A stretch of DNA of 64,000 nt, taken from assembly GCF_027622875.1 (NCBI RefSeq), contig NZ_JAPZVP010000007.1:124001-188000 (forward strand). Direction: 5' to 3'. The position numbers were made by a program, and so were the translations under genes. This stretch comes from Glycomyces luteolus (GTDB taxonomy: Bacteria; Actinomycetota; Actinomycetes; Mycobacteriales; Micromonosporaceae). The notes below the pieces were generated by a model. It saw nothing but the letters and a program-made list of their open reading frames with translations, was not told the origin of the DNA and searched no databases. Numbering within the stretch: position 1 is the first letter of the stretch; every line of letters starts with the position of its first letter. Below are positions 4,321-36,262 of the stretch, one piece after another.

Positions 4321-4336
4321 CAACACCCTGGGGGGA

Positions 4337-5842: not shown

Positions 5843-5887
5843 GCCGGAGCGGGGGAGGGGCGGGCCCCCGGGATCGACGGCGCACCC

Positions 5888-5932
5888 CCATAGCCCTATA
5901 GTGCTAACATCCTAGTGAAATAGAGAAACTTC
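5888..5932 (+). promoter_or_regulatory. AT-rich leader of the GntR/ABC operon with a TAGTG direct repeat
   Basis: In a region otherwise above 70% GC, these 45 bases are AT-rich and contain TATAGTG and CTAGTG about 14 bases apart. Such a position, just before a GntR/YtrA-type gene, is where autorepressor binding and the promoter are expected. TAACAT could be the -10 element. The assignment rests on position and composition only. Confidence 0.35.

Positions 5933-6318: not shown

Positions 6319-6322
<4 letters not shown>
5933..6322 (+). CDS. GntR family (YtrA subfamily) transcriptional regulator
   Basis: 129 residues, GTG start. The N-terminal winged helix is clear: 'APYMQLVHQVQQALRLGMLDVGDQLPTVKQVVAKIAINPNTVLKAYRELERQGLV..RPGRGTFV' is the GntR DNA-binding domain. 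The short C-terminal helical tail (about 45 residues) is the YtrA type, not an FCR/UTRA ligand domain. YtrA-type regulators usually repress their own operon with an ABC transporter and respond to cell-envelope-acting compounds. The stop overlaps the ATPase ATG (ATGA), so the three genes form one coupled operon. Confidence 0.91.
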
Positions 6323-7208
<886 letters not shown>

Positions 7209-7212
<4 letters not shown>

Positions 7213-8198
7213 TCTGGCTGACCTGGCGCCAAATGCGCGCCCAGACCCTGTGGTCCGCCGGCATCATCGCCGCTGCCGCCGCCTACCTGCTGTACCTCGG
7301 CGCCGACATCCGCGACGCCTACCGCCTCAACATCACCGACTGCACCACCGGCTGCGACGACGCCGTGCACACCCTCGCCGACCAGTTCGGGTCCGGCCTG
7401 CTCCTCATCGGACTCTTCCTGCTCGCCGCACCGGCCCTCATCGGCGCGTTCTGGGCCGCGCCCCTCATCACGCGCGAACTCGAGACCGGCACCCACCGCC
7501 TCGTGTGGAACCAGTCGGTCACCCGCACCCGCTGGCTCGCGGTGAAACTCGTGATCGTCGGGGGAGTGAGCGTCCTGTTCACCGGCGCGCTCAGCTTGCT
7601 GTTGACCTGGGCCGCAGGGCCGTTCGACAAGGTCGTCGACAGCCGGTTCGAGCCGTTGACGTTCGCCGCCAGGGACCTCGCCCCGTTCGGGTACGCCCTG
7701 CTGGCGTTCACCCTCGGCCTCGTGGTCGGCGTGCTGGCCCGCAAGACGCTCGTGGCGATGGCGGTGACGCTGCTCGTGTTCGTCGTCTTCCAGCTGCTCA
7801 TGGCGAACGTGCTCCGACCGCAGTTCGCCGAGCCCGTCACCGAGACCATCGGCTGGGACGACGCGAACACCGTGGGCCATATCGACTCCTTCGGCATCGG
7901 CCCGCAGGGCGCCGGCATCCAGGAGTACCAGATCCCCGGCGCGTGGGTGGTCTCCGACTACATCGTCGTCTACAAAGGCGACGGCACCGAGTTCACGGAG
8001 GCGGACCTCAAGACCTGCGAAGCCCAGGGCGGCACCCCGGACGACTGCTTGATCGCGCTGGATGCCACGTTCGACGTGACCTACCAGCCCGCCGACCGCT
8101 ACTGGGACTTCCAGTGGATCGAGTTCGGCGTCGCCGCCGGGCTGGCGGCCGTCCTGGCCGGGGTCGCGTTCTGGCGGATCCCGCGCGGACTCTCGTGA
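7209..8198 (+). CDS. ABC transporter permease
   Basis: 329 residues with about six hydrophobic segments: one after the N-terminal 'MIWLTWRQMRAQ', a pair at 60-90, others at 110-130, 155-200 and near 310. A long extracytoplasmic loop of about 90 residues lies before the last segment. The start 'ITRELETGTHRLVWNQSVTRTRW' resembles the ABC-2 type permeases that partner YtrA-regulated ATPases. Encoded last in the three-gene operon with a four-base overlap; a perfect 15-bp hairpin lies 58 bases after the stop. The substrate is unknown. Confidence 0.86.
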
Positions 8199-8256
8199 GC
8201 CGCCGCAGCCGAACCACACCGACCTGGCGAGATTCCCGCAAGTAATGAAGGAGGAG

Positions 8257-8288
8257 GCGGGTGTCCGGCCCTAGGGCCGGACACCCGC
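8257..8288. terminator. Perfect 15-bp bidirectional terminator hairpin
   Basis: GCGGGTGTCCGGCCC and its exact reverse complement are separated by only TA. It sits between the convergent ABC permease and VOC genes and can stop transcription from both sides. Confidence 0.86.
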
Positions 8289-8304
8289 TGACGTTTCATC
8301 GGCG

Positions 8305-8709
8305 TCACTGGTCGGTGATGTCGACCATCCAGTTGATGCCGAACCGGTCGACCAGCGCACCGAACTCGTCGCCCCACATCTGCTTCTCGAGGGGCATGGT
8401 CACCGTGGCGCCCTCGCCGAGGCCCTCCCAGTAGCCGCGGAGGCGGTCGGCATCGTCGCCGGAGATGCTGATCGAGATGTTCTGGCCCGGCTTGTGCTCC
8501 ATGCCCGGAGGCATGTCCGAGGCCATGATCATGTAGCCCGCCTCCGAGTTGAGCGAGGCGTGCATGACCTTGTCGGACCCCGGGCCGGGCATGCCGGACT
8601 CGCCGAAGGTCATCACCTTCAACTCGCCGCCGAGCACGCTCTGGTAGAACTCCATGGCCTCCCGTGCGTTCCCGTCGAACTGGACGTACGGATTGAGGAT
8701 CGAACCCAT
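8305..8709 (-). CDS. VOC family (PhnB-like glyoxalase fold) protein
   Basis: 134 residues. 'LNPYVQFDGNAREAMEFYQSVLGGEL' at the start, 'MASDMPPGM' in the middle and the end 'MWGDEFGALVDRFGINWMVDI' match PhnB/3-demethylubiquinone-like VOC proteins, which are paired beta-alpha-beta-beta-beta units, often metal-binding. The residue pattern 'WGDEFG..VDRFG..W' is the conserved second half. Many are annotated as epoxidase subunit or methyltransferase-like without proof; the reaction here is unknown. Monocistronic, with GGGAGCCC before the ATG. Confidence 0.9.
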   Translation of the reverse strand: MGSILNPYVQFDGNAREAMEFYQSVLGGELKVMTFGESGMPGPGSDKVMHASLNSEAGYMIMASDMPPGMEHKPGQNISISISGDDADRLRGYWEGLGEGATVTMPLEKQMWGDEFGALVDRFGINWMVDITDQ

Positions 8710-8866
8710 TGCGGGCTCCCTTCGTCGTAGCGGTCTACCGCCATACTCGCAAGCGGGGCCGACGCGGGACCGCGATTCGCCGATTCCGGCATGCGCGGGG
8801 GATCAGGACGCGGCGCGTTTGACCAGCTGGAACAAGGCGACTTCCTGGCTGCGGAACATCACAGGC

Positions 8867-20016: not shown

Positions 20017-20301
20017 GGTCGGAGCGTAAGTGCCCAGGTGGGCGGGTGGGGGAACCCGACATGGCCCGGGTCTGAACCGCAGCCGATATTCCGGGCCGGG
20101 CGGGTTCGGGTGTGGGGGGCGGGTCGCGGTGGGGCGGTGGCGGTGTGGGGGCCGGGGCGGGCGTGGGCGACTTCGATGCGGGGTGGTGTCGTACCCGGAG
20201 GGTAGGTATTGGAGGATGCAGCAACCGGTCGGCCCTGGGCCGGCCCTGCGGGTGCCGTTCACTGCGGCGGTGCCCGCCGCAACCTTGTGAAGGAGCCCCC
20301 G

Positions 20302-21003
20302 ATGTCACTGTCGAGTGCCGACATCGCTCATCTCGAAGCGGTGCTGGCGCAAGGAAAGAAGCCGAAGGTGGTGTTCACCGACGCTGCCGGGCAGGTCGCC
20401 GGGCGCACCGGGAAGGTCGTCGCCCTCGATCCGGGCGGGGTGGACGACTTCGTCCATGTCGCATTCGGGTCCGACGAGCTGTCGTTCTCCGCCGTTGAAC
20501 TGCGCCTGCCCGCGCCCGGCGAGGGTGCGCGGCGCGCGCCGCGCCAGCGCTCGAGCGAGCCGGCCGCGCCGGTCGCGCCTTCGGGCCCGGGACTGCTGCC
20601 CGAGGAGCCCGCGCCGAAACCCAAACCAGCTGTGAGTGAGAGGAAACCCGTGACCGCACCTGAGGTGTCTCAGATGGCCGCCGCCGAGCCTGCGGCGGCC
20701 CCGAAGAAGAAGGCCGCCCGGCCGCGCGCCGCGGCCGCGAAGCACCCTGAGCTTTCGATCACGTTGACCTATGAGGACGGGGAGTGGTCGGTCGCGGCCT
20801 CCCGCGGCGCCCGCACGGTCGTCAAGGGCGCCAAGGTCGCGCACTCGAACGCGCTGGCGATGTGCCAGGCGTCGGGTTCCGATGAGGTGGCCGAGGTCGT
20901 CGACGAGGTGGTCGAGAAGATCCGCTCCGAGGCCGCCGAGGAGGCGTCGCGGCTGCGCCGCCAGCTCGAGGAGGCCGAGGCGCGCCTCGCCGAGCTGAAG
21001 TAG
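20302..21003 (+). CDS. DUF6319-like conserved actinobacterial protein
   Basis: 233 residues, ATG with AAGGAG upstream. Three parts: an N-terminal beta-rich module of about 70 residues ('PKVVFTDAAGQVAGRTGKVVALDPGGVDDFVHVAFG'), a Pro/Ala/Lys-rich low-complexity linker (70-150), and a C-terminal module ('LSITLTYEDGEWSVAASRGARTVVKGAKVAHSNALAM') ending in a charged coiled-coil tail. It resembles proteins labelled cell wall anchor/DUF6319 in Streptomyces, but there is no signal peptide or LPXTG motif, so it is probably cytoplasmic. The basic linker could bind nucleic acid. Followed by a strong hairpin. Confidence 0.8.
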   Translation: MSLSSADIAHLEAVLAQGKKPKVVFTDAAGQVAGRTGKVVALDPGGVDDFVHVAFGSDELSFSAVELRLPAPGEGARRAPRQRSSEPAAPVAPSGPGLLPEEPAPKPKPAVSERKPVTAPEVSQMAAAEPAAAPKKKAARPRAAAAKHPELSITLTYEDGEWSVAASRGARTVVKGAKVAHSNALAMCQASGSDEVAEVVDEVVEKIRSEAAEEASRLRRQLEEAEARLAELK

Positions 21004-21185: not shown

Positions 21186-21698
21186 TCAGTCTCGGGCGTG
21201 CTTGATGTAGATCATGACCGCTTCGCGGGTGGTCTTGACGCCCAGGGATTGGCGGGCCGCGGCGATGCGGCGGTTGGCGGTGCGCAGGGACACGAATTCG
21301 GCTTCGGCGGCGGCGGCGATCGTGGAGCCCGCCGCGAGGCGTCCCAGCAGGGCCCGCTGCTCGGCGTCGAGGTCGAGGCCGTCGGCGGCTTCGGCCTTGC
21401 CCGGGGTCAACCCGAGAGGCCCGACCCGGCGCAGGTCCGCGGCGAGGCTCAGTGCGAGCGCGCCGGTCGCGACCGCGACGATCCCGGCCCCGCGCGCGGC
21501 CGCGAGGACCGCCTGCGAGGCCGTGTGGTCGTCGTTGACCTGCCCGTGGCACACCAGGTGCCGCTCGGCCAGGTCCCAGGCCGGCTCGAGCAGCGCGAAC
21601 CCGCGGTGCGCCGCCCAACCGGCGGCGGCGCAGCGGCGCACGATCGCGTCCGCGTCGCCGGACGCGCCGACCACGTGCAGCGGCACCTGCTCGACCAT
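21186..21698 (-). CDS. Short LuxR-type HTH regulator coupled to the LAL gene
   Basis: 170 residues. The N-terminal 100 residues have no recognised domain but carry several helices and a hydrophobic 'VLAAARGAGIVAVATGALALSLAADLRR'. The C-terminus has a LuxR-like four-helix HTH ('LDAEQRALLGRLAAGSTIAAAAEAEFVSLRTANRRIAAARQSLGVKTTREAV'). ATG 21698 touches the stop of the large regulator gene (TGATG), so the two are translated together. A truncated or degenerate partner regulator, perhaps controlling the same target as the LAL protein, is a reasonable guess. Confidence 0.78.
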   Translation of the reverse strand: MVEQVPLHVVGASGDADAIVRRCAAAGWAAHRGFALLEPAWDLAERHLVCHGQVNDDHTASQAVLAAARGAGIVAVATGALALSLAADLRRVGPLGLTPGKAEAADGLDLDAEQRALLGRLAAGSTIAAAAEAEFVSLRTANRRIAAARQSLGVKTTREAVMIYIKHARD

Positions 21699-24130
21699 CA
21701 CGCCTCACCGCTCTCGGCGGCCGTCAGCAGCACCGCGGCCTCGGTGCGGGTCTTCGCGCCGAGTTTGCGCATCCCCGAACGGATGTGGGTCTCCACGGTC
21801 TCGGCGGTGATGCCGAGGATCTCAGCGATCCGCCGCGACGGATGCCCGGAGGCGACGTGCCGCAGCACTTCGCTCTCGCGGTCGGTCAGTCCCCCGCCGC
21901 CGCGCGCCGACCGGCGGTCGCGGCGCACGTCGTGCTTGCGCAGGCCCCGGCGGGCCCTGCCGGCCAGGACGATCAGGCCGTGCTCGTCGGCGATCCGCTC
22001 GGCCGCTTCCAGGGCCGCGACGGCGGCCTGCGCGTCGCCCGCGTGCGCGGCGAGCGCGAGGAGGCAGCGGACCTGCTCGCGGGCGGCCAGGCCGTCCCAG
22101 GCGGTCGCCGCCTGCGCGAACGGGCCCGGCGCGGCCTTGTCCCACGCCGAGAGCGTCGAAGCGACCGGTACCGGCCACGGGGACTGCTCGGCGGCGACCG
22201 GCTCGGTCCCGGTGTCGTAGGCGATCCACCGGCCGGTGATGTGCGCGAGCCCGCCGACCAGGCCCGGCCGGGATTCGGGCGCTTCGGGTCCGGGCTGGCC
22301 GTCGAGCCAGGCCGTCTCGTGGTCGAGCCACGCGACGAGCCCTTCGAGCGCGGCAGGGGCGTCCTTCAACCGCGCCAGGCGGGCCCGCGCGGCCCCTAGC
22401 GCGCCTGTGTCGGCCTCGGCGAGGGCGATCGAGGCGTCGATGAGCGTGTCCGCGACCGCCGGGAGCGCGTGGTCGGCGAGCGACTGGGCGGCGGCGATGA
22501 CGTTGTCCAGGCCCGTGCCGGAGAGGACCAGGCACCACGCGGCGGCGGCGAGGAACCGCGTCTGCCACGAGTAGGCGCCCGCGGCCCCGGCCCGGTCGGC
22601 AGCCTCGTGCGCGACCGCTTCGGCCTCGACGAGCCGCGCGGCGTCGGCGAGGGCGATCACCCGCGACCACGCGCACCAGAACGCGGTGGTCGCATCCCCC
22701 GCGTCGCGCGCCAGCGCCTCGGCGAACGCGAGCGCGTCGGGGTCGTCCCCGGCGAGCGCGGCGGCCAGGCCCGGGTGGGTCAGGTCGGGGTGGGCCTCCC
22801 GCAGCGACGCGATCAAGTCGTCCTTTTCAGAGGGTGGGGCGGTGAGGAGGCGGAGCTGGTCGGCTTCGGGCCCTTCGGGTGCGCTTTCGAGGGCGGCGCG
22901 GGACTGCGCGGTTTCGCCGAGCGCCAGGAGCGCCCACGCGCGCGCCAGGGCGGCCTCGGGGTCGTCGGGGGCGCGGTCGAGGACGGCGAGCGCGGCGCGG
23001 GTGCGTCCGGCCGCGAGCGCGGCGCGGGCGGCGGGCACGGCGTGGGACGCATCGAGGTCGGCGGCGAGGAGGAGCGCTTCGGCGCGGGCCTGCGGGCCCG
23101 CGGACTGGGCCGCGTCGAGGGCGGTGGCGAGGGCGCGGTCGGCCAGGCCCGCGGCGTGGGCGTGGCGGGCGGATTCGACGCCGACAGTGGCGTCGGCGAG
23201 GCGCTCGTGCATGGACAGGCGGGCGTCGTGGTCGAGGATGCCCGCGGCGACCTCGGCCATCCACGGGCTGGCGGCCCGCAGGTGGGCGCCGTCGGGGACG
23301 GTCAGGCCGGCGTCCTGGAGGACGGCGGCGCCGTCGCCGAGGAGGCTCGGGTGCGCCGGCCGGCCCAGGAGGCCGAGCGCGGCGAGCGCGGTGCGGCCCG
23401 AGCGCGGCAGGTCGGCGATCGCGGCGGCCGCCGCGGCGGCGGGGTCGCCGGGGGTCTCCAGGTCCAGGTCCTCGCCGGGCGATTCGAGGTTCGCGGCGCG
23501 CTTGGCGAGCGCGGTGAGGGCGAGGGGGTTGCCGCCGGCTCGGACGGTGAGGGCGGCAGCGCGCGAGGGCGGCAGCGCGGGCGCGGCCTCGGCGACGAGC
23601 CGGGCCGCTTCGGCGTCGGTCAGGTCCGGGACCGGGATGACGGTGGCGGATCCCAGGAGCCGGGCCAGCGCGGTCTCGCTCAGCCGGTTGGGGGTGCGCA
23701 GGGCCGCGGCGACCGGGAGGCGCTCGGCGAGGATCGGGAGGACGGCGAGGGTCGCGGCGTCGCACCACTGCAGATCGTCGATGACGAGAAGGCCACCGCG
23801 AGTGCGGGAGTAGACCGCCTCGGCCAGCAGCGGCAGGTCGTCGGCGGGCATCCGCGCCCGCGTCGCCCGCTCCAGGGCCAGCGCGGGGGCGCCGGAGAGC
23901 ATCGCGAGGCCGCCGCCGGCGTGGACCGGGCGTTTGGAGGCCTGCGCGAGCCGCTCGAGCAGGCGCGTGCGCCCGCAGCCGGGAGGGCCGGTAACGACCA
24001 CCAGGCCGGGTCCGGCCAGCGCTTCGGCCATGGCGTGGAGCGCTTGATCGCGGTCGCCCTGGCCGGGGTCGGCGGGCGCGGAGTCGACGCGTGGTCGGGC
24101 CAGACCGGGGGTGGGCGGCGGGGCGGCCAA
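21698..24130 (-). CDS. Large LuxR-family (LAL-type) regulator with AAA+ domain
   Basis: About 810 residues. Residues 48-55 are a P-loop 'GPPGCGRT' in which Arg54 replaces the usual Lys; Walker B is 'LLVIDDLQWCD' near residue 120. An AAA+ NTPase module and a long Ala-rich helical (TPR-like) middle follow, and the last 65 residues are a LuxR HTH ('LTDRESEVLRHVASGHPSRRIAEILGITAETVETHIRSGMRKLG'). This is the architecture of MalT/LAL regulators. TTG 24130 is the likely start, because AGGAG lies seven bases upstream and no ATG/GTG precedes the P-loop closely enough. Divergent from the dynamin operon over 177 bases, which it may control. The target is unknown. Confidence 0.86.
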   Translation of the reverse strand: MAAPPPTPGLARPRVDSAPADPGQGDRDQALHAMAEALAGPGLVVVTGPPGCGRTRLLERLAQASKRPVHAGGGLAMLSGAPALALERATRARMPADDLPLLAEAVYSRTRGGLLVIDDLQWCDAATLAVLPILAERLPVAAALRTPNRLSETALARLLGSATVIPVPDLTDAEAARLVAEAAPALPPSRAAALTVRAGGNPLALTALAKRAANLESPGEDLDLETPGDPAAAAAAAIADLPRSGRTALAALGLLGRPAHPSLLGDGAAVLQDAGLTVPDGAHLRAASPWMAEVAAGILDHDARLSMHERLADATVGVESARHAHAAGLADRALATALDAAQSAGPQARAEALLLAADLDASHAVPAARAALAAGRTRAALAVLDRAPDDPEAALARAWALLALGETAQSRAALESAPEGPEADQLRLLTAPPSEKDDLIASLREAHPDLTHPGLAAALAGDDPDALAFAEALARDAGDATTAFWCAWSRVIALADAARLVEAEAVAHEAADRAGAAGAYSWQTRFLAAAAWCLVLSGTGLDNVIAAAQSLADHALPAVADTLIDASIALAEADTGALGAARARLARLKDAPAALEGLVAWLDHETAWLDGQPGPEAPESRPGLVGGLAHITGRWIAYDTGTEPVAAEQSPWPVPVASTLSAWDKAAPGPFAQAATAWDGLAAREQVRCLLALAAHAGDAQAAVAALEAAERIADEHGLIVLAGRARRGLRKHDVRRDRRSARGGGGLTDRESEVLRHVASGHPSRRIAEILGITAETVETHIRSGMRKLGAKTRTEAAVLLTAAESGEA

Positions 24131-24307
24131 AAGGGGGCTCCTAACGCTGTGGCACGAATGGGGGAGGCGGCCGGGCGGCTGCGGTTTGTATCGTCGTCTT
24201 GTCGACGGAACGCCGACGCCTCTCATGATATTGCGGAACCTTCGATGCCGCAGACCGGCGTCGGCGCCCAGGTGCCGAGAGAACGACGAGAGGGCGGACG
24301 CGGGAGC

Positions 24308-25798
24308 ATGGTGGCAGGGCAACTCACCACGAGTGTGGCGGGCATGTGCGAAGAGCTGGCCGGCAAGGTCAGCAGCGCGTCTCGCCCCGTGGTCGAGGAG
24401 GTGGCCTCCAGGCTCGGGCAGCCGTTGCGCGTCGCGGTGGCGGGGCGGTTGAAAGCGGGGAAGTCCACGCTGGTCAACGCTTTGATCGGGCGCAGGGTCG
24501 CGCCGACGGCGGCCGGTGAGTGCACGCGCGTGGTGACCCAGTTCCGGTACGGCCCGGCCGACCGGGTCGACGTGATCGCCCGCAACGGCACGAAGCACGC
24601 GGTCCCGTTGGACGCCAACGGGATGATCCCCACCACGCTGCCGATCCCGGCCGACGAGGCCGCGATGATCGACGTGCAGCTGTCCTCGGACCGGTTGCGG
24701 GACTTGACCGTCGTCGACACGCCCGGTCTGCAGTCGGTCAACACCGACATCTCCGATGCGGCGCGCGAGATGCTGTTCGCCGCGCCCATCGCCGACGACG
24801 TCGACGACGACTCGCGCGCGGCCGTCGAATCGGCCGAGGCGATCATCTACGTGTTCACCCAGCAGGTCCGCGCCGACGACGTCGAGGCGTTGGAGGCGTT
24901 CGCGAAGGCCTCGCAGCAGCTGGCGTCCTCGCCGATGAACGCCCTGGGGCTGTACAACAAGGCCGACAAGCTCGCGCCCGGGCCCGGCCAGGACCCGTGG
25001 CCCGTCGCGGGCCCCATCGCCGGCGACCAGGCCGCGGTGCTGCGCCGCTCGGTGTGCGATGTCGTCCCCGTCGTGGGGCTGCTGGCCGAGACCGCCGAAG
25101 CGGGCCTGCTGACCGCCGCCGACTGCGAAGCGCTGCGGACCCTCGCGGGACTCGACGAGGACAAGCGGGCGCTCATGCTCGCCTCCGCCGGCCTGTTCCT
25201 GTCCACTGAGGGGCCCGTCGACAAGCACCAGCGTCAGCGCCTGCTCGAGCGCCTGGACTTGTACGGCATCCACTTCGCGATCGCGCACCTCGGCGCGAAT
25301 CCGCACCTGGCCACCGGTGAGCTCGTGCGGCTGCTGTTCGCCGCCTCCGGGTTCCCGCGGCTGCGCACGACCCTGCACCAGATCTTCGGGGTGCGGGCCG
25401 ATGTCATCAAGGCGGGCTGGGCGCTCGGGCGCCTGGACGCGGCCGCCGCCTCCGGGCCCGCCGCCGACCGCGACCTCTTGAGGGGCGCGGTCGAATCGAT
25501 CGTCGCCCGCCCCGAATACCACCGGCTGCCGCTCCTGGAGGCCGCCGCGCAAGTCACCACCGGGCAGGTCGCCCTGCCCGAAGCCATGGAAGCCGAAGTC
25601 GCGCGCCTCGCTTTGACCGACGACGCCGGCGTCGTTCTCGGCCTCCCCGGCGAAGCCCGCCCCCAGCTGCGCCGCGCCGCCATCGAAGCCGCCGCGCGCT
25701 GGCGGGCCTTCGCCAACGGCGGCGCCACACCGGCGCAGGCGCGGGTGGCGAACGTGGTGCATCGTGGTTTCCATCTACTCGCCCAGCGGCTCGGATGA
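24308..25798 (+). CDS. Dynamin-like GTPase, IniC-like
   Basis: 496 residues. G1 'GRLKAGKST' at residues 46-54, G2 Thr in 'ECTRVVTQ', G3 'DTPG' near 140, and G4 'NKAD' near 218 form a complete GTPase domain. Helical segments follow. The size is close to that of mycobacterial IniC, and the next dynamin downstream matches IniA in size. Bacterial dynamins remodel or stabilise membranes. ATG 24308 has GGGAG almost touching it; GTG 24311 is an equally good start. First gene of a four-gene operon, oriented away from the LAL regulator. Confidence 0.86.
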   Translation: MVAGQLTTSVAGMCEELAGKVSSASRPVVEEVASRLGQPLRVAVAGRLKAGKSTLVNALIGRRVAPTAAGECTRVVTQFRYGPADRVDVIARNGTKHAVPLDANGMIPTTLPIPADEAAMIDVQLSSDRLRDLTVVDTPGLQSVNTDISDAAREMLFAAPIADDVDDDSRAAVESAEAIIYVFTQQVRADDVEALEAFAKASQQLASSPMNALGLYNKADKLAPGPGQDPWPVAGPIAGDQAAVLRRSVCDVVPVVGLLAETAEAGLLTAADCEALRTLAGLDEDKRALMLASAGLFLSTEGPVDKHQRQRLLERLDLYGIHFAIAHLGANPHLATGELVRLLFAASGFPRLRTTLHQIFGVRADVIKAGWALGRLDAAAASGPAADRDLLRGAVESIVARPEYHRLPLLEAAAQVTTGQVALPEAMEAEVARLALTDDAGVVLGLPGEARPQLRRAAIEAAARWRAFANGGATPAQARVANVVHRGFHLLAQRLG

Positions 25799-25851
25799 GC
25801 CCTAGAACCCGGCCCCGCAGTGGGACGCCTGCACGACCGAAGGAGAGCATT

Positions 25852-26430
25852 GTGACGAATCGACTCGGCGGACCGCTGGTGGGAGCCCTCGTGGGCCTCG
25901 CCGCCGCCGCCCTGGGCGCGGTGTTCCTCACCGGCGGGTTCGATCCGGTGACTTTGGCCGTCGCGGCCGGGTCGGTCCTCGTCACCGCCGTGGTCGCCGT
26001 CCTCACCGGACGGTCGATCGCGCCCGCGCCGGCACCGCAGGCGGCGCCGCCGGTCTCCGGTGTGCCCTTCTCCCCTGGGCCGTCGGGGCCGATCCCGGTG
26101 CAGCAGCTGCAGGAGCCGGCCCGTGCCGCGCAGGCCATGTCCGACCGCAACGCCCTCGTCGAGGCGTGCATCTGGATGCGCGACCGCGCCACCTCCCCCG
26201 CGCTCGCGCAGCACCTCGACGGCGCGTTCGCCCGCGTCGGCGTCGCCCAGGTCGATGCGACCGGGCAGCGGTTCGACCCGGCCGTGCACGAGGCCGGATC
26301 CACCATCGCCGCCGGGTCCCCCGCTGAGGACGGCATCATCGCCCGCACCGAGCAGATCGGCTACACCGACCGCGGCCGCCTCCTGCGCCACCCCATCGTC
26401 ACCGTCTACCGGGGCCAGGTGCGGGCATGA
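25852..26430 (+). CDS. Membrane-anchored GrpE-like protein
   Basis: 192 residues, GTG start with AAGGAG nine bases upstream. Two hydrophobic helices occupy residues 5-55, then a Pro/Ala linker, then a helix 'AMSDRNALVEACIWMRDR' and a beta module: 'GVAQVDATGQRFDPAVHEAG', 'IARTEQIGYTDRGRLLRHPIVTVYRG'. This last pattern (a 'D..G..FDP..HEA', then 'GY....R.LR...V.V') is that of the GrpE beta domain, the part that opens the nucleotide-binding domain of Hsp70. GrpE proteins are normally soluble, so a membrane-bound form between two dynamins is unusual. No Hsp70 is encoded here. Its stop overlaps the start of the second dynamin gene. Confidence 0.76.
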   Translation: MTNRLGGPLVGALVGLAAAALGAVFLTGGFDPVTLAVAAGSVLVTAVVAVLTGRSIAPAPAPQAAPPVSGVPFSPGPSGPIPVQQLQEPARAAQAMSDRNALVEACIWMRDRATSPALAQHLDGAFARVGVAQVDATGQRFDPAVHEAGSTIAAGSPAEDGIIARTEQIGYTDRGRLLRHPIVTVYRGQVRA

Positions 26431-28343
26431 CCGACACCGCCACCCCGCCCCCGGCCGCGAAGCCGGCCACGGTGAAGAAGGCCGCGACGCCCGCGAAGCC
26501 GAACCCGGCCCAGCAGATCCACAAGCTGTGCGCCCGCGCCGCCAAGGCGGGCAACGCCTCCCTGCGCACCGTCGACGCGAAGGCCGCCGCCGAAGTCGAC
26601 GAGGTCTCGCGCTGGCAGCCCGACAAGCCCGTCGCCGTCGTGGTCGGCGAGACGAAGCGCGGCAAGTCCTCGCTCGTGAACGCCCTCCTCGGCATGCCCG
26701 GACTGTCGCCGGTGGACGCCCAGGTGGCGACCACGGCGTACCTCGAGTTCGCCTGGGCCGAGCAGGCGTCGGTGCGCGCCTGGCAGCCCGGCGCGGCCGA
26801 CCCGATGCTCCTGGGCGTGGGCGACCTGCGCAACTGGGCGACCCGGCTGGGGACGATGCCCCCGGGCATGGTGCCGCCCAGGCGGATGCTCGTGGGCCAC
26901 CCCTCGGCGCTGCTCAAGCACATGTCCGTCGTGGACACGCCCGGGACGGGCGGGCTCGACCCCGACCACGCGCAGATCGCGCTCGAAGCGGTCGCGCGCG
27001 CCACGTGCCTGATCATGGTCACCGACGCGTCCTCGCCGATGGCGAAGACCGAACTGGACTTCCTCACCGAGGCGTCCAAGCGCGTCAACTTCGTCGTGTT
27101 CGCCCTGACCAAGACCGACACCTACCCGGGGTGGCGCACGGTCATGGAGGAGAACCGCTCGCTGATCGAGGCGCACGCGCCGCGCTTCCGCAACGCCCCG
27201 CACTACCCGGTGTCGGCGATGCTCGCCGAGCACGCCCTCAACTCGCAGGGCCCCACCCGCCAGGCCCTCGCGAAGGAGTCGGGGATCGGGAAGATGCAGC
27301 GGGCCCTCGTCAAGGTCGCCACCGCCGGGAAGGCGCTGGTCGCGGCGAACGTGGTCCGCGCGGTGCGCACCGAGTTCCAGCGGCTCGCCGTCTCCGCCGC
27401 CGCCGACATGAAGGCCTACGACCCCGACCCTGAGGCCGCCAACCGGCTCAAGGAGGAGAAGAAGCAGGCCCTCGCCTTGCGGCGCACCGAGACGAAGAAG
27501 GCGAACCTCGCCCTCCGGGTGGAGACGCAGCGGGCCAAGATCGAAGTCCAGGGCCGCCTGCGCACCCACTTGCAGGAGCTCGAGGAGGCGCTGCTCGACG
27601 AGGTCGAGAAGGCCAACAAGGCCGCGCTCGAATCGCTGCCGAACCGGGTCGACATCGCCCTGCAGGGCATCGCCGCGCGCCTCTCGGGCGAGCTGCACCA
27701 GCGGTTCGTGCTCCTGGCCGAACGCGTGCTGCGGCAGGTGTTCAACGACGACGAGCTGCGCCAGGCCACCAACTCGATCTCCGCGGGCCTGCGCACGGCC
27801 GCCTCCGGGCGGGCCCGGCGCGGCGACAACTCCGACGGCGCGCTGCTCGTGGCGTCCTCGGCAGGTGTGGCGATGATGGCCGGACGCGCGGTCACCATGG
27901 GCGCCGGTGCGATCGGCCTCGGCGCGGTCGCCGGGGTCGGGGCCATCGCCCTGACCGCCTCCGGTGTCGGCATCGGCCTCGCCGCCGCCGCGTTCCTGCT
28001 GTACCGCCGCAAAATCCAAGGCAACCGCGCCGCCGCGAAGCAGTGGGTCCAGCGGGTCATCGCCGAAGCCCGGGCGAACCTCAACGAGGAGATCAGCTTC
28101 CGCTTCACCGAGGTCGAGTTCGTGTTCAACTCCACGCTGGACGACGCCCTGGAGCGCCGCGCCGCCGAGTTCGACGCGCGGATCTCCGCCGCCGAGAACG
28201 CCCAGAAGGCCGACCAGGCCGCCAGGGCGAAGAAGCAGGCGGCGCTCAAGCAGCGCCGCGACTCCATGGCCGCCAAGGTCAAACAGCTCGACGAGGTGCT
28301 GGCAAAGGCCCGCACCCTCGTCCCAGGCGAGGAGGATGCGTGA
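26427..28343 (+). CDS. Dynamin-like GTPase, IniA-like
   Basis: 638 residues. After a Lys/Ala/Pro-rich basic N-terminus, G1 'GETKRGKSS' is at residues 74-82, G3 'DTPGTGG' near 170, G4 'TKTD' near 228. A long Lys/Glu/Arg-rich helix (about 330-420) precedes a Gly/Ala-rich hydrophobic stretch at about 471-530, a likely membrane hairpin or paddle, and a charged coiled-coil tail. Layout and length fit IniA, whose mycobacterial form has been shown to be a dynamin that acts on membranes. The start overlaps the previous stop and the stop overlaps the next start (TGATG). Confidence 0.87.
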   Translation: MTDTATPPPAAKPATVKKAATPAKPNPAQQIHKLCARAAKAGNASLRTVDAKAAAEVDEVSRWQPDKPVAVVVGETKRGKSSLVNALLGMPGLSPVDAQVATTAYLEFAWAEQASVRAWQPGAADPMLLGVGDLRNWATRLGTMPPGMVPPRRMLVGHPSALLKHMSVVDTPGTGGLDPDHAQIALEAVARATCLIMVTDASSPMAKTELDFLTEASKRVNFVVFALTKTDTYPGWRTVMEENRSLIEAHAPRFRNAPHYPVSAMLAEHALNSQGPTRQALAKESGIGKMQRALVKVATAGKALVAANVVRAVRTEFQRLAVSAAADMKAYDPDPEAANRLKEEKKQALALRRTETKKANLALRVETQRAKIEVQGRLRTHLQELEEALLDEVEKANKAALESLPNRVDIALQGIAARLSGELHQRFVLLAERVLRQVFNDDELRQATNSISAGLRTAASGRARRGDNSDGALLVASSAGVAMMAGRAVTMGAGAIGLGAVAGVGAIALTASGVGIGLAAAAFLLYRRKIQGNRAAAKQWVQRVIAEARANLNEEISFRFTEVEFVFNSTLDDALERRAAEFDARISAAENAQKADQAARAKKQAALKQRRDSMAAKVKQLDEVLAKARTLVPGEEDA

Positions 28344-28849
28344 TGGATGAGTTCGACGCCTTCGAGCCCGAAGGCAACGCGGACTTCGACACCGGCGACC
28401 TCGATGACGACGCGGACGCCCCCGCATTGGACGAGTTCGACGACGGCGAGGTTCCCGGCGACGACGACCTCGAAGGATTCGCGTTCGACGGAGCCGAGAC
28501 CGACTTCGACGGCGACGAAGCGCTCGAGGAGGACTTCACCGTCGACGCCGAATTCGACGACGACGCGGTCGAGGACGAGGCCCCCGCGGGCGACGAGACC
28601 GCCTACGCCGCCACGTACGAGGATCTCCTCGTCGACGAGGCCGACAACCCGCCGAACTTCCCGCCCGAACTGGACCTCGACGTCCCCGAACCGGTCGACG
28701 GCTACCCCTGGGTCGACCTTGACGTGCTCGGCTCGGCCGAGGCCGAGCCGTGGGTGAACTCCGGCTCCTCGGTCGACGCCTCCGAGTACGCGATCGCCGA
28801 CGTCGACGACCCCGCCGCTTCCGCGCTCGCCCGGTTCTGGCAGGGCTAG
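28343..28849 (+). CDS. Extremely acidic protein, last gene of the dynamin operon
   Basis: 168 residues, of which 59 are Asp or Glu; only one Arg and no Lys. The first 95 residues are nearly all Asp/Glu/Phe/Ala/Gly and must be disordered; the rest has short hydrophobic and Trp-bearing patches ('DGYPWVDLD', 'AEPWVNSG', 'ARFWQG'). ATG 28343 overlaps the IniA-like stop by one base (TGATG). No family is recognised. The opposite charge to the Lys/Arg-rich helices of the dynamin suggests an electrostatic partner or chaperone; that is inference. Confidence 0.78.
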   Translation: MDEFDAFEPEGNADFDTGDLDDDADAPALDEFDDGEVPGDDDLEGFAFDGAETDFDGDEALEEDFTVDAEFDDDAVEDEAPAGDETAYAATYEDLLVDEADNPPNFPPELDLDVPEPVDGYPWVDLDVLGSAEAEPWVNSGSSVDASEYAIADVDDPAASALARFWQG

Positions 28850-30518: not shown

Positions 30519-30674
30519 AGCACCGAATGAGACGCATCCGTATGAAAATGTCGGACCTGGCGACACCCGAAGCGGCAATGCGGCGGTAGATTGACTCCAT
30601 TACCGTCGAGACCGACGCCCGACTCCCCTCACGGGCACCGGCCCGTCCCCGCACGACCGACCGGGAGCCGCGTG

Positions 30675-31937
30675 GTGAACGAACCAGACCACTACCGCGT
30701 CCTCGGGGTCAGCCCGCAGGCCCCGAAAGCCGACATACAAGCGGCCTATCGCCGCCGGCTGCGCGAGACCCACCCCGACCGCGGCGGCGACGAGGACGAG
30801 TTCCACCTCGTCCAAGGCGCCTGGGAGACCCTCTCCCACCCTGGGCTGCGCCGCGAATACGACCTGCTGCGCTTCGGCCGCCGCGCCGCCCGCCGCTACG
30901 GCAAGGCCGCCGCGAAACCCTCGCACCGCAAAGTCCGCGGCTGGAACGTCTCGCCCGCGCCGCAGCCCGCCGCGCAGGGCTTCCCCGCCGAGGGCGCCCT
31001 CGTCGCCGTCCCCTGGCACGCCAGGCTGCGCCTCACCCGGCCCGTGCACCGGCCCTCGGCCTGGGCCGCGGCCGCATACATGGCCGCGGTCGGCGCCGTC
31101 TGGGTCTTCTGCGGGCTCGGCTACCTCGGGCAGGCGCTCGCCGCCGACGGCTGGCTGTTCCTGGCCCTGGCCATCCCGGTCACGATCGCCGTCGCCATCA
31201 TCGTGCTCGTCCAGACCAGCCGCGCCCTCAGGCGCCGCCCCGACACCGCGCCGAACCCGCCCACCGGGCGGCTCATCATCGCGTTCCTGTTCGCCACCGC
31301 CGTCGTCTGGCTCGCCGGCCTCTCGACGCCGTGGGGCTGGGCACTGGGCGTCTACGTGCTCACCGGCACCGCCCTGGCGTGGACGGTGAAGCGCCTGCGG
31401 TACACGCTGGCGCTGCGCCGCTCCGTCGGCGGGGCCCTGCGCCAGTTCAACGCGTTCGGGCCCGCGGGAACCCGCCCGAAGGCGGACCGGTCCACGGGCA
31501 AGCTCCTGCGCGAAGTGCTCACGAACCTGCCCGCGGCGCGGCTGTTCGTGGCACTGCCGGTGGACCTGGAGACGCGCGTGCCGCATGCGATCGTCTGCGG
31601 CGACCGGATCGCGCTGCTGTGCGCGCCGGTCGGGCGCGACAGCGCCGATGTGGACTCCGTGAACCTCGCCGAGGCCGTCAAGGCCCTCGACGCGGCGCTG
31701 CCGGACGCGAACGTGCAGGGCTGGGTGCTGTGGCCGACTCTGCCCGAGACCGCCCGCGCGGGCGAGGCCGCCGCCGTCCACGACGTCGCGGTCGGCCAGG
31801 CCGCCAGCGATATCGGCCTGTGGCTCGCAGCGGGCGGCATGGTCTACGACCTGCCGGTGCTCCAGGCGCTGCGGATGCGCCTCGCGGCGGTGCCGGCCCC
31901 GCGCACCGGGGACCGGACCCCGGTCGTGCGCACCTGA
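30675..31937 (+). CDS. J-domain (DnaJ-like) membrane protein
   Basis: 420 residues. The J domain is at the N-terminus: 'DHYRVLGVSPQAPKADIQAAYRRRLRETHPDRGGD' with the essential HPD at 33-35. A basic linker follows, then two pairs of hydrophobic helices (about 135-190 and 210-245). The C-terminal 150 residues form a soluble domain with a nuclease-fold-like 'PHAIVCGDRIALLCAPVG' and no clear catalytic set. J domains recruit Hsp70, so this could place an Hsp70 at the membrane. GTG 30675 preferred to 30672 because of spacing from GGGAG. Its nearness to the GrpE-like gene (4 kb upstream) is suggestive. Confidence 0.84.
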   Translation: MNEPDHYRVLGVSPQAPKADIQAAYRRRLRETHPDRGGDEDEFHLVQGAWETLSHPGLRREYDLLRFGRRAARRYGKAAAKPSHRKVRGWNVSPAPQPAAQGFPAEGALVAVPWHARLRLTRPVHRPSAWAAAAYMAAVGAVWVFCGLGYLGQALAADGWLFLALAIPVTIAVAIIVLVQTSRALRRRPDTAPNPPTGRLIIAFLFATAVVWLAGLSTPWGWALGVYVLTGTALAWTVKRLRYTLALRRSVGGALRQFNAFGPAGTRPKADRSTGKLLREVLTNLPAARLFVALPVDLETRVPHAIVCGDRIALLCAPVGRDSADVDSVNLAEAVKALDAALPDANVQGWVLWPTLPETARAGEAAAVHDVAVGQAASDIGLWLAAGGMVYDLPVLQALRMRLAAVPAPRTGDRTPVVRT

Positions 31938-32060
31938 GTTCAGCTGCCTCAGTCCTTGTCCGCTGCCGCACCGCAGATCCGCTCCGCCGCAGCGTAACCG
32001 CACGCTCCGTGAGCAATCGCACCCTCCACACGGACGGGTTCCGCCAGTACAGTGCAGGCT

Positions 32061-33611
32061 GTGAACGCCACCGACCGAGCCGCCGAGGACGCCGCCGGAA
32101 GCACGGGCGCGGCCAGCGCCGGGAGCGCCAGCCGACCCGGCGCTGACGCCAGCGGGCCTATGCCGCTGGCCGCCGGAGACGCGGACCGGTCGCTCGCTCG
32201 ACACTCTGACGCGATCGTCGCCAAGCGCCCTGGGGCCTCGGCCACCGACAGCGTTGCGCCAGCCCTTGTCGCGCGCGCTGACGCGATCGTCGCCGACCGC
32301 CTCCGTGCCGCCGCCGCCCGCGAGCCCCTGCCGGGCGAGGCGGCCGGGACGAGCGCCGCCGAACTCGCCGCGTCCCTCAGCGCCGGTTCACCGCACTCCG
32401 CACGGTTCACCGCCGAGATCGCCGCGGCCGTGCGCGGCACCGCCCTCGCCCTGCAAGCGGCGCAACCCCACCCCGCCGACCTCTGGGCGGCTGCCAGCGC
32501 GGCGCACCCGGACCCGTCGGTGTGGTTCGAGCAGGCGGTCCTGCTGGGGCATCCGACGCATCCGCTCGCGCGTTCGCGCGGCGAGCTGACCGATGACGAG
32601 ATCCGCGCCTACGCGCCCGAGCATCGGCCGCGGTTCGACTTGCGGCTCTACCGGTTCGAAGGGCTCGACGAGCCGCCGATCTGGTTGAGCATCTGCGGTC
32701 GGACGGAGCAGCTGCCGGTCCACCCGTGGCAGGCGGCGCGCTACGGCCTGACTGCGGTGTCGCGGACCGTCTCGGATGCGGCGCCGCTGATGAGCCTGCG
32801 CACGGTCTCAGCAGGCGACCTCCACATCAAGACCGCCGTGGACCTGCAGTTGACCTCGGCGGTCCGGCACGTCTCCCCGGCGTCGGTGCACAACGGCCCG
32901 ATGCTGTCGCGGTATCTGGTCGATCCGGCCGCCGCGCAGGGCATCACGTTGCTGAAAGAACGTGCGGCCATCGCCCGCGGTCCGGAAGGCGAGCCGCTGC
33001 CGCAGCTGGCCGCGATCGTCCGCCCTGCCCCGCACCTGTCCGGACACCCGCGCGCGGTCCCGCTCGCGGCCCTGGCCGAACCCGACCCGGCCACCGGTCG
33101 GCCGATCGCGGCCGCGCTCGCCGGGGACGACCTCGAAGCCTGGTGGGACGCTCTCGTGGCGGTGGCGCTCGCGCCGGTGCGGCTGTTCGAGGCGACCGGT
33201 GTCGCGCTCGAGGCGCACGGGCAGAACGCCCTCGCGTCCTTCACCGGCGACCGTCCGACCTCGCTGGTGTACCGCGACTACGGGGGTGTCCGCGTCCCCA
33301 GGACCGGCTGGCCCGTGCTCCAAGGCGACCTGCAGACCGACGATGCCGACGAGCGGCTGCGCAAACTCACCGCCGCGCTCTTCCCGACCACGCTGACCGC
33401 GCTCGTGGATGCGCTCGCGACCTGGACCGGCACCGATCCGGGACGGTGGTGGCGCACCGTCGACCGCGCTCTAGCCGACATCGGCGGCAAGGCCGCACAG
33501 GCGATGCGGACCGAGTCGTGGACTATGAAGGCCACCACCGCGATGCGTCTGGCCGAGCGGCCCACTGACGACATCTGGGTGCCGATCGAGAACCCTCTGG
33601 CGGCGGTGTGA
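32061..33611 (+). CDS. NIS siderophore synthetase (IucA/IucC family)
   Basis: About 516 residues. Residues 1-90 are Ala-rich and variable. Then the NRPS-independent siderophore synthetase fold appears: 'LLGHPTHPLARSR' near 165 (nucleotide-binding 'GHPxHP'), 'LPVHPWQAARYGL' near 220, 'HIKTAVDLQLTSAVRHVS' near 260, and 'FEATGVALEAHGQNAL' near 380. These enzymes adenylate a carboxylate (usually citrate or 2-oxoglutarate) and couple it to an amine or alcohol in the cytosol. The GTG at 32061 follows TACAGT by eight bases, which suggests a leaderless transcript; GTG 32052 is the alternative. The stop overlaps the start of the fused enzyme gene. Confidence 0.9.
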   Translation: MNATDRAAEDAAGSTGAASAGSASRPGADASGPMPLAAGDADRSLARHSDAIVAKRPGASATDSVAPALVARADAIVADRLRAAAAREPLPGEAAGTSAAELAASLSAGSPHSARFTAEIAAAVRGTALALQAAQPHPADLWAAASAAHPDPSVWFEQAVLLGHPTHPLARSRGELTDDEIRAYAPEHRPRFDLRLYRFEGLDEPPIWLSICGRTEQLPVHPWQAARYGLTAVSRTVSDAAPLMSLRTVSAGDLHIKTAVDLQLTSAVRHVSPASVHNGPMLSRYLVDPAAAQGITLLKERAAIARGPEGEPLPQLAAIVRPAPHLSGHPRAVPLAALAEPDPATGRPIAAALAGDDLEAWWDALVAVALAPVRLFEATGVALEAHGQNALASFTGDRPTSLVYRDYGGVRVPRTGWPVLQGDLQTDDADERLRKLTAALFPTTLTALVDALATWTGTDPGRWWRTVDRALADIGGKAAQAMRTESWTMKATTAMRLAERPTDDIWVPIENPLAAV

Positions 33612-36262
33612 ACCTCGCCTCCCAGATCAAAGCGGCCGCCTGGCGCGAGAACCTGGGCGGCTTCCGCGACCGGCCCCTGCCTGAGGGCGCGCGTGAGCGG
33701 GCCTTCAACCAGCTCGACGTCGACGGGCCCGATGAGGACCCGGTCAAGACCCTCGAGGCGATCCTCGGCGGGGCCGTGCCCGAGCACCTCGCCGCCGAGC
33801 TCCACTCCGCACGCGAAGGCTTGGAGCACGCGCGGACCCGTGCGGAGCGGCGCGGCCGCCACCTCGCCGCTCTGGCGGCGCGGGCCGGGGCCGGGAGTCT
33901 CGCCGAGCTCGTCGCCTCGTGCGGGCGCGACGTCCACACCGTCGGGCGGCTGCTCGAGACCCTCGCCACCGAAGGGCATCAGCTGCATCCGTGCGCGCGC
34001 ACCCGCCTCGGCTGGGACCGGGCCGACCGGGAGCGGTACGACCTGGAGGCGACCCGGCCGATCCGGGTCCGGCTCGTCGCCGACCGCGCCGGGGTCCTTG
34101 AATACTCCGGCGAGGACTTCCGCGACCAACCGATGCTGCGCGGCCTCGACCTGCCCGACCCGGTGCTCCCGGTGCACCCGTGGCAGCTGGAGCACCGGAT
34201 CCTGCCGGGCCACCGGGACCTGTTCGACTCCGGGCGCTTGAAGGTCATGGACGAGTCGATCCCGGCCTGGCCGACCGCGGCGATCCGCACCCTCGCCGGA
34301 CACGACGCGCCCGGGTTCTTCAAGCTGGCCTTGGGCATCCACATCACCTCGACGCGGCGCGACATCTCCCCCGCGACCGCGCTGCTGGGCCCGCGCCTGT
34401 CCGCGCTCATCGGCCACATCCACCGCGTCGGCGACAACGGGACCGAGTCGCAGCACCGCATCGCCATGGACGTCTCGGGGGCGTGGCTGCCCGGTTCGCG
34501 CGACCTCACCGCACTCGCCCGGGCGCCGCTCGCCCGCTACGAGCCGAAGGGGACCGTCTACGTCCCGGCGACGGCCCTCACCGCGACCTCACCGGTGACG
34601 GGCCTGAGCCTCGCCGCCGAATACGCGCGCTGGTCCGGCGACCCCGACGCGTGGATCCACCGCTACGCCAAGCTGTTCGCCGGTCCCGTCCTGCGCCTCG
34701 CCGAAGGCGGCATCGGTCTGGAGGCGCACCTGCAGAACAGCATCGTCGCGATGCGCGGCCCCGAACCGGTCTTCCCCGTCTCCCGCGACCTCGGCGGCGC
34801 CCGCATCCACCTGCCGACCCTCCCGTGGGAACTCGAACTGCCGCAAGGCAGCCCGGTGAACGCGACGAGCATGGACCAAGTGCGGGCGAAAGTCGCCTAC
34901 ACGTTGTTCCAGAACCACTTCGCGGCCCTGGTCGCCGTCCTCGAACGCGACCTGGGACTGGACGGGGCGGCGTTCTGGGCGGACCTGGCCGACGAGCTCG
35001 GCGATCGCCTCTCCCAGGCCGAACGCGCCGCTTACCTCGCATCCGAGCAGCCCACGAAAGCGCTGCTGACCATGCGCCTGCACCCAGGCGAGGAGATCGA
35101 GACCCTCGTGGACAACCCGCTCGCGAACGCCCGCGTGCACCAGCACCCCACCCTCGACCGGCACGTCCGCGCACTGCGATCCCCCGCCAGCGCCTGGATC
35201 TACGACCCCGCCGGGGTCACCGCGTTCCTGGAATCCCTGCGAGAGCACCTCAGCGGGCACACGGTGCTGTACGCGATGAAGGCGTGCGCGAACCCGGCGG
35301 TGCTGGCCGCGGCCGTGCGGGCCGCGCACGGCGTCGAGTGCGCCTCCGGCGGCGAACTGGCCGCGGCGCAGGCGGCGGGGGCGGCGCGGCTGGCGTTCTC
35401 GGGTCCGGCGAAGACCCCGGACGATCTGGCCGCGGCGGCGGCGTGCGGCGTGCCGCTGTGGATGCACGCCGAGAGCGTGCGCGAGCTCGACGGGCTGGCG
35501 GCGGCCGGGTTCACCGGTCCGGTCGCGTTGCGCGTCAACCGGGGCCGGGCCCTGCCGGGGACGCATCAGATGACGGGCGTGCCGACCCCGTTCGGCATCG
35601 ACGAGGCGCAGGTCCCGGCGGCGATCGACCGGGCCCTGGGTCTGGGCCTGGACCTGGTCGGGTTCCATCTGCACGCGGTCTCGAACTGCCTTGAGGCCGA
35701 GGCGTACGCGCATCATGTGCGCGACTCGCTCGGGTGGTCGCATGCGGCGGCGCGGGGGCGGTTCGCGCTGCGGTACGTGAACGTGGGCGGCGGGCTCGGG
35801 TCCGATCCGCGCGGGGCGCGGATCGACGTGGCCGCGCTGGCGGCGGGCCTGCGGGGTCTCGATGCGGGCGGGGCGGAGCTGGTGTTCGAGCCGGGCCGGT
35901 ATGCGGCGGCACCGGCGGGCTGGTACGTGGCCGAGGTGTTGGATCTGAAGACCGTTGGGGGCCAGGCGTTCGCGGTGGTGCGCGGGGGGACGCACCATTT
36001 CCGGCTGCCGGCGGCGTGGGGGTACTCGCATCCGTTCGCGGTGGTGCCGGGGCCGCGCCGGGGCGAGGTGTGGTCGGACGTGGAGGTGCGGGTGTGCGGG
36101 GAGCTGTGCACGCCGCGGGACGTGCTGCACGGCGGCCAGCGCGTGTCGTCGCTTGCCGTCGGGGATCGGCTGGTGTTCGCCAATGCCGGTGCGTACGGGT
36201 GGGAGATCTCGCATGACCGGTTCCTGGGGCATCCGGGCCCGGAGCAGGTCGTCATCGGCTGA
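33608..36262 (+). CDS. Fusion of NIS synthetase and PLP-dependent decarboxylase
   Basis: 884 residues, GTG start overlapping the previous stop. Residues 1-515 are a second NIS synthetase ('LPVHPWQLEHRIL', 'FFKLALGIHITSTRRDISP', 'GIGLEAHLQNSIVAM'). Residues about 520-884 are a type III-fold PLP decarboxylase of the diaminopimelate/ornithine group: PLP Lys558 in 'YAMKACAN', 'GFHLHAVSN' near 680, Gly-rich 'NVGGGLG' near 720, 'EPGRY' near 760, and 'CGELCTPRDVL' near 838. Such decarboxylases (SbnH, PvsE, AcsE) act on citryl intermediates in staphyloferrin B, vibrioferrin and achromobactin synthesis, where they are separate proteins. Here both activities are in one chain. No exporter, receptor or iron box was seen nearby. 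Confidence 0.9.
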   Translation: MNLASQIKAAAWRENLGGFRDRPLPEGARERAFNQLDVDGPDEDPVKTLEAILGGAVPEHLAAELHSAREGLEHARTRAERRGRHLAALAARAGAGSLAELVASCGRDVHTVGRLLETLATEGHQLHPCARTRLGWDRADRERYDLEATRPIRVRLVADRAGVLEYSGEDFRDQPMLRGLDLPDPVLPVHPWQLEHRILPGHRDLFDSGRLKVMDESIPAWPTAAIRTLAGHDAPGFFKLALGIHITSTRRDISPATALLGPRLSALIGHIHRVGDNGTESQHRIAMDVSGAWLPGSRDLTALARAPLARYEPKGTVYVPATALTATSPVTGLSLAAEYARWSGDPDAWIHRYAKLFAGPVLRLAEGGIGLEAHLQNSIVAMRGPEPVFPVSRDLGGARIHLPTLPWELELPQGSPVNATSMDQVRAKVAYTLFQNHFAALVAVLERDLGLDGAAFWADLADELGDRLSQAERAAYLASEQPTKALLTMRLHPGEEIETLVDNPLANARVHQHPTLDRHVRALRSPASAWIYDPAGVTAFLESLREHLSGHTVLYAMKACANPAVLAAAVRAAHGVECASGGELAAAQAAGAARLAFSGPAKTPDDLAAAAACGVPLWMHAESVRELDGLAAAGFTGPVALRVNRGRALPGTHQMTGVPTPFGIDEAQVPAAIDRALGLGLDLVGFHLHAVSNCLEAEAYAHHVRDSLGWSHAAARGRFALRYVNVGGGLGSDPRGARIDVAALAAGLRGLDAGGAELVFEPGRYAAAPAGWYVAEVLDLKTVGGQAFAVVRGGTHHFRLPAAWGYSHPFAVVPGPRRGEVWSDVEVRVCGELCTPRDVLHGGQRVSSLAVGDRLVFANAGAYGWEISHDRFLGHPGPEQVVIG

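Follow-up and report, generated by a model that had tools for sequence, protein, structure and literature searches.

The question raised by this locus is why a gene for a chaperone cofactor should lie between the genes of two bacterial dynamins. In a 64,000-nucleotide stretch of DNA from Glycomyces luteolus, a soil actinobacterium (contig NZ_JAPZVP010000007.1, positions 124,001 to 188,000; hereafter the window), open reading frame (ORF) lists and translations confirmed the four plus-strand genes that a sequence-only reading had placed at 24308-28849, encoding an IniC-like dynamin, a GrpE-like membrane protein, an IniA-like dynamin and an Asp/Glu-rich protein (Table 1). That reading had supposed that the GrpE-like protein, as an Hsp70-type exchange factor held at the membrane, may load or disassemble the dynamin coat. 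The linked, membrane-held Hsp70 without a peptide-binding part that was found in many relatives is suggestive of a chaperone-like ATP switch connected with the bacterial dynamins, and our preferred reading, to which we give a probability of roughly 0.4, is that a dedicated membrane Hsp70/GrpE nucleotide switch would control the IniA/IniC pair.

The GrpE-like protein was assessed by profile search and by structure prediction. Its C-terminus passed the PF01025 cut-off of 25.8 bits, covering profile positions 98-163 of 165, and its counterparts in two relatives scored 30.9 and 31.3 bits. The model, built from an alignment (A3) of 42 GrpE-like sequences comprising the window protein and those of 41 of the 46 named loci that carry the gene (L070, L072, L079, L127 and L129 were omitted; the sample is described below), had a mean pLDDT of 80.3 and consisted of two hydrophobic membrane helices (residues 8-26 and 32-51, pLDDT ~70), a low-confidence linker, a 30-residue helix (83-112), a short helix (116-128) and a six-strand GrpE beta-wing (131-187, pLDDT 93-97). 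With this model, the first 12 Foldseek matches were all GrpE or GrpEL1 chains (probability 1.00, E 2.3e-7 to 1.1e-3) with modest whole-chain TM-scores of 0.31-0.46, and the 13th was unrelated (E 0.64). Both the two N-terminal helices and the GrpE beta domain of the sequence-only reading were thus borne out, the membership in GrpE being limited to the beta-wing and the short helices; the stalk and several contact residues of GrpE failed the comparison. The picture of a membrane-held exchange factor stood as regards the fold and its two helices, but the anchor proved not to be universal and contact residues were changed on both sides. By hydropathy, two membrane segments were seen in the GrpE-like protein of 7 of the 14 distant loci and 29 of the 45 measured named loci, and none in the 15 measured loci of L130-L145, mostly Pseudonocardiaceae. 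Neither of the two outcomes that would have spoken against the sequence-only reading, a missing GrpE fold at residues 120-190 or a four-gene order not conserved in relatives, was encountered.

As to which Hsp70 such a protein might serve, the 64-kb window contained none of the 12 Hsp70 matches of its genome. In relatives, 10 of 14 genomes had an Hsp70 match no more than 10 kb from iniC (these genomes were selected for a GrpE-like match, G046 being counted via its weak IniC), against an expectation of 0.35 genomes calculated from their sizes and Hsp70 match counts. When families were taken as units, the Hsp70 was adjacent in all genomes of six of the eight, in differing arrangements (upstream on the same strand, or downstream and convergent), and in G038 and G053 the cluster-adjoining gene was the sole Hsp70 found apart from DnaK. 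All 22 ORF pieces, representing 21 cluster-linked genes, best matched one and the same protein among the seven Hsp70 loci of the window's genome that were compared out of its 12 matches, namely the 455-residue orthologue in Table 1. Of 22 Glycomyces genomes, 21 had an orthologue at this level; the one in which none was found, G020, is a 3.3 Mb draft.

The linked Hsp70 has an unusual layout. In all four tested proteins of this type the Pfam match ended at profile positions 368-377 of 599, and the substrate-binding domain is therefore missing. For the Dactylosporangium protein (L091), the model showed an ATPase domain to about residue 349, a stretch with pLDDT near 40 and a single C-terminal helix, and all 50 listed fold matches were Hsp70 chains or their ATPase domains. 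A strong membrane segment followed the ATPase domain in 21 of 21 cluster-linked ORFs (hydropathy), and the motifs DFGTSNT and DLGGGTFD were intact in the six Hsp70s compared. The search for an Hsp70 gene beside such dynamin pairs, which the sequence-only reading had proposed, was thus fruitful, but the protein it yielded has no substrate-binding domain; coat disassembly through peptide binding is consequently not available to it, and that part of the earlier proposal fell. Inspection by eye revealed other residues at the positions of DnaK Arg44, Asn56, Thr60 and Tyr106 in the Hsp70 of the window's genome, while the position of DnaK Glu236 held Glu in three and Asp in one of the six proteins. 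Hsp70 ATPase domains without a substrate-binding domain also occur elsewhere in the window's genome (L034, L036 and L037), there with a hydrophobic stretch behind the ATPase domain and then large C-terminal regions of repeat-like character (by eye), and the number of Hsp70 matches in a relative's genome reached 23 (G032).

The presence of the two genes was also correlated. Among 39 relatives outside Glycomyces, the Hsp70 orthologue was found in 13 of 14 genomes with the GrpE-like gene versus 4 of 25 without it, as defined by a match from query residue 1 with E ≤1e-100, a rule set after the results had been seen; for the 20 genomes with a strong IniC match, the figures were 13/13 versus 3/7. 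The orthologue was present in only five of 33 searched genomes belonging to the 34 named loci without a GrpE-like gene (mostly Actinoplanes and kin), at a threshold of E ≤1e-118 that may be too strict for L139 (Halopolyspora). Eight of these 33 genomes held other matches to the GrpE-like alignment A2, three of them at 54-67 bits. Like the GrpE fold and the Hsp70 domain layout, this genetic linkage and joint absence are direct results of the computation. They bear on the possibility that the GrpE-like protein acts on ordinary DnaK and gathers it at the membrane near the dynamins, the tail-anchored Hsp70 being a neighbour with another job. The pairing of GrpE with DnaK is a known one, and the window's genome does contain a full DnaK with a separate canonical GrpE on the same contig. 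Nevertheless, it is with the tail-anchored Hsp70 that the GrpE-like gene co-occurs, two genomes lacking this gene have DnaK matches as well (L060 and L061; DnaK was not counted systematically there), and some of the residues that contact DnaK are changed, and we regard this explanation as very unlikely.

The order of the genes was conserved in relatives. The GrpE-like gene was present in 21 of 21 same-genus genomes, and among 14 distant loci whose GrpE-like match was strong, 13 had the order iniC, GrpE-like gene, iniA, the exception being L054 (genome G046), whose weakly matching dynamins lie on a different contig. Two of the 13 (L058 and L059) have genes inserted between the GrpE-like gene and iniA; by eye, these are an Lsr2-like gene and a second gene in L058 (9397-10981) and two near-identical 414-residue transposase-like ORFs in L059 (8605-11577). 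A broader set of 80 named loci, the best 80 of at least 325, came from a search with an alignment of IniC proteins whose loci bear the GrpE-like gene, and hence leans to near relatives, those closest in IniC (88-99%) being Glycomyces. It contained iniA in 80/80, the GrpE-like gene in 46/80, a regulator homologue opposite in strand to iniC in 65/80 and a linked Hsp70 in 13/80. There is some overlap between the sets: G027 and L096, which agree in position and score, are probably one genome, and the rows of L057 and L084, and of L053 and L134, are identical. In 34 of the 80 loci the dynamin pair is kept with no GrpE-like gene in the retrieved stretch, some of these stretches ending at contig ends. 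The idea that the GrpE-like gene is inseparable from the dynamins was rejected on this ground and on that of G042, which has Hsp70-iniC-iniA without it.

The same counts can be read as shared regulation only, in an envelope-stress locus whose dynamins and Hsp70/GrpE pair act separately on the membrane. The retention of the divergent regulator accords with this, as do 30 of the 80 loci in which the dynamin pair and the regulator are accompanied by neither the GrpE-like gene nor an Hsp70 in the retrieved stretch. On the other hand, the Hsp70 linkage outlasts rearrangement in several families and the GrpE-like gene sits between both dynamin genes, and such common control alone seems to us very unlikely.

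Several observations weigh against the switch that we prefer. The long N-terminal stalk helix of GrpE is missing from the model, in which only helix 83-112 remains, and changes in the long helix of Mycobacterium tuberculosis GrpE (Mut-1) greatly reduced DnaK binding, nucleotide exchange and refolding (PMC10803776). Of the GrpE-DnaK contacts listed in the same source, Pro144 was kept in 42/42 sequences and Arg169 in 0/42, the Ser160 position was variable, and Asp110 and Ser118 were not alignable with certainty. On the Hsp70 side, eight residues around DnaK Tyr257 were missing in 6/6 proteins (by eye). In Glycomyces itself no Hsp70 was seen beside the iniC cluster, the copy of the window's genome lying about 58 kb off. 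In seven relatives (G027, G033, G042, L090, L098, L099 and L102) the Hsp70 occurs together with iniC although the GrpE-like gene is absent, and the Hsp70/GrpE pair is therefore not inseparable. Relatives of the J-domain gene described below follow iniC-iniA pairs without a GrpE-like gene (L149 and L150), and the genome of L150 has this J-domain gene and no Hsp70 orthologue by the E ≤1e-100 rule. In addition, the locus counts take no account of ancestry.

Nucleotide exchange by the GrpE-like protein is only putative because of the missing stalk and the changed contact residues, which are compatible with a pair whose contacts have been rewired as well as with a loss of exchange. On another reading, the beta-wing would be only a docking domain that tethers or senses the Hsp70 ATPase domain. 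The loss of the stalk, required for both binding and exchange in M. tuberculosis, and of the Arg169 contact points that way, as do invariant residues of the family's own, Glu186 and Asp192 (window protein numbering; 42/42), which differ from the aligned M. tuberculosis GrpE. What has been retained, however, the beta-wing and the short helices, comprises the very parts that, in GrpE proper, touch the lobes of the ATPase domain and open them (PMC10803776, PMC11685456), and a pure docking role appears to us rather unlikely.

The dedicated switch could operate as follows. The IniA/IniC-type pair would work with a two-part membrane ATP switch, of which the first part would be the Hsp70 ATPase domain, held in the membrane by its C-terminal helix and devoid of a substrate-binding domain, and the second the GrpE-like protein, likewise membrane-held in this family, which would reset the Hsp70 nucleotide. 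Since ordinary peptide gripping would be beyond this Hsp70, its most probable role is that of an actin-type ATP/ADP switch: by binding or letting go of the dynamin pair (or of the acidic protein) at the membrane, it would time the assembly and disassembly of the dynamins. Nucleotide exchange, direct dynamin contact, assembly control and regulation, and with them the loading or disassembly of the dynamin coat, are inferred. A membrane J-domain protein, possibly the third member of the Hsp70 cycle, may supply the hydrolysis signal. Its gene (Table 1) was kept on the same strand 4.4 to 7.7 kb downstream of iniC in 23 loci, 22 of them named as or identical to Glycomyces, Stackebrandtia, Actinorhabdospora and Phytomonospora, the remaining one being L047. 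Activation of the operon would fall to the divergent LuxR-type regulator, in the way that IniR activates iniBAC.

The features of the locus are collected in Table 1. The IniC-like protein shared 58-98% identity with nine relatives and 43-48% with six further ones (alignment A1), and a search of the Protein Data Bank (PDB) with a profile of these 16 proteins returned as its top three the bacterial dynamin-like protein 2J68, the GTP-binding protein 5OWV and IniA. For the IniA-like protein, IniA (6J72) was the sole PDB sequence match at E up to 0.01 (E 2.6e-22), and the earlier assignment of two dynamins holds. Both also matched LeoA/LeoBC in PADLOC (best 61 bits), with weak hits for the regulator; this was not counted as evidence for anti-phage defence.

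Overlapping starts, also part of the sequence-only reading, were found at the last two junctions, where the GrpE-like gene and iniA share 4 nt (26427-26430) and iniA and the acidic gene share 4 nt with GTG 28340, or one base with ATG 28343. The first junction differs. Against the longer ATG frame, similarity to the 21 same-genus matches began at residue 9-15 in 15 and at residue 1-4 in six, and an AAGGAG lies 6 nt upstream of GTG 25852; the start is therefore most likely this GTG, which leaves a 53-nt gap after iniC, and the overlap of these two genes was probably wrongly assigned. An acidic ORF (D+E ≥20%, K+R ≤6%) lay 3' of iniA in 81 of 93 loci, a set that holds at least two duplicate pairs; its C-terminal motif was recovered in 40/81 by the first pattern and in 73/81 by a looser one fitted after the misses had been seen. 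The acidic protein of the window matched no Pfam or NCBIfam family, including the IniB domain, which the NCBIfam model NF038175 does detect in L153.

Table 1. Features of the dynamin locus and the Hsp70 orthologue of the same genome.
Feature	Coordinates	Strand	Evidence
LuxR-type regulator, divergent, with AAA-like and TPR-like parts	21698..24226 (start uncertain, ~24031 to 24226)	-	GerE 58.3 bits
IniC-like dynamin GTPase, 496 aa	24308..25798	+	Dynamin_N PF00350 61.3 bits (cut-off 27)
AAGGAG, likely ribosome-binding site of the GrpE-like gene	25840..25845	+	read directly
GrpE-like membrane protein, GTG start, 192 aa	25852..26430	+	PF01025 40.1 bits
IniA-like dynamin GTPase, 638 aa, long hydrophobic stretch (by eye)	26427..28343	+	Dynamin_N 51.5 bits
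Asp/Glu-rich protein with C-terminal end DDPAASALARFWQG	28340..28849 (GTG 28340 or ATG 28343)	+	no family match
J-domain protein, HPD motif, hydrophobic stretches (by eye)	30591..31937 (start maybe GTG near 30675)	+	PF00226 DnaJ 56 bits
Hsp70 orthologue, 455 aa	contig C47 of the window's genome (G000), 210616-211983, ~58 kb downstream of the operon		PF00012 148.7 bits

In the regulator, the GerE match was above its cut-off, whereas AAA_16 (31.3 bits) and TPR_19 (21.7 bits) remained below theirs. A small gene (21186-21701, minus strand) overlaps its stop, and L047, L049 and L057 likewise have a similar small gene after the regulator (by eye), so that the regulator may form a two-gene unit. Parts of a Lys/Ala-rich protein encoded at 20209-21003 (plus strand) resemble genes near the clusters of L047 and L091 (by eye). 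Beyond the J-domain gene, 32052-36262 encodes two proteins that look like IucA/IucC enzymes of siderophore synthesis, one half of the second resembling a decarboxylase (by eye).

Compared with known systems, the locus shares an IniA/IniC-type dynamin pair and, putatively, a large LuxR-type ATPase regulator with the mycobacterial iniBAC/IniR system (PMC6715688, PMC5760070), the likeness to IniR being one of domain layout. It differs in its order, iniC-grpE-like-iniA-acidic, with the GrpE-like gene inserted and no IniB domain found in the acidic protein. An iniB-iniA-iniC locus proper occurs in L153 (genome G043, 972-8712; IniB domain 63.8 bits), where the gene divergent to iniB encodes an Hsp70-type ATPase domain (66 bits, positions 103-373) with an apparent membrane helix, a Thr-rich tail and nucleotide motifs that look degenerate (by eye). 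One may go further and suppose that the whole Hsp70 cycle exists in a membrane version that drives the IniA/IniC dynamins of actinobacteria, in which an anchored, peptide-binding-free Hsp70 ATPase domain, an anchored GrpE exchange factor and an anchored J-domain protein would form an assembly switch for a GTPase coat instead of a folding machine, with a like Hsp70 switch beside iniBAC-type loci too; in this full extent the proposal is unlikely.

With the GrpE of M. tuberculosis (PMC10803776) and human GrpEL1 (PMC11685456), the GrpE-like protein has the beta-wing and short helices in common, but a membrane hairpin and the 30-residue helix replace the long stalk and the Arg169 and Ser160 contacts are not kept. 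The nearest described neighbourhoods are those of the DO-GTPases and GAP1-N2 (PMC7159879), in which HSP70, GrpE, DnaJ and HSP70 without a peptide-binding domain lie beside other GTPases; the combination of GTPases with Hsp70, GrpE and J-domain genes, in part a lone Hsp70 ATPase domain, the occurrence in actinobacteria and the proximity to the membrane are common to both. The DO-GTPases, however, have been placed in a TRAFAC family of their own, described as having a glutamate in Walker B and partners of the GAP1/FNIII kind, whereas the motif was DTPG in all 16 IniC-like sequences, and the word "dynamin" was not found in the available text of that paper. No account of a dynamin pair with Hsp70 and GrpE genes appeared among the titles and abstract openings listed by searches of an open-licence library.

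An Hsp70 ATP cycle acting on a membrane coat is familiar from clathrin uncoating by Hsc70 and auxilin. That likeness is an analogy only, given that the Hsp70 here has no substrate-binding domain.

The measured fission activity of IniA is described as relatively low and help from IniC has been suggested (PMC6715688). The dedicated Hsp70/GrpE pair would, if the preferred reading is true, be a candidate regulator for switching IniA/IniC on and off, and an Hsp70 ATP cycle would be used without peptide binding. Whereas Hsp70 and GrpE beside other GTPases were already known (PMC7159879), the version with a dynamin pair was not found described in the open-licence literature covered, and through it the loosely annotated Hsp70-type ATPase domains of actinobacteria become testable in a defined setting.

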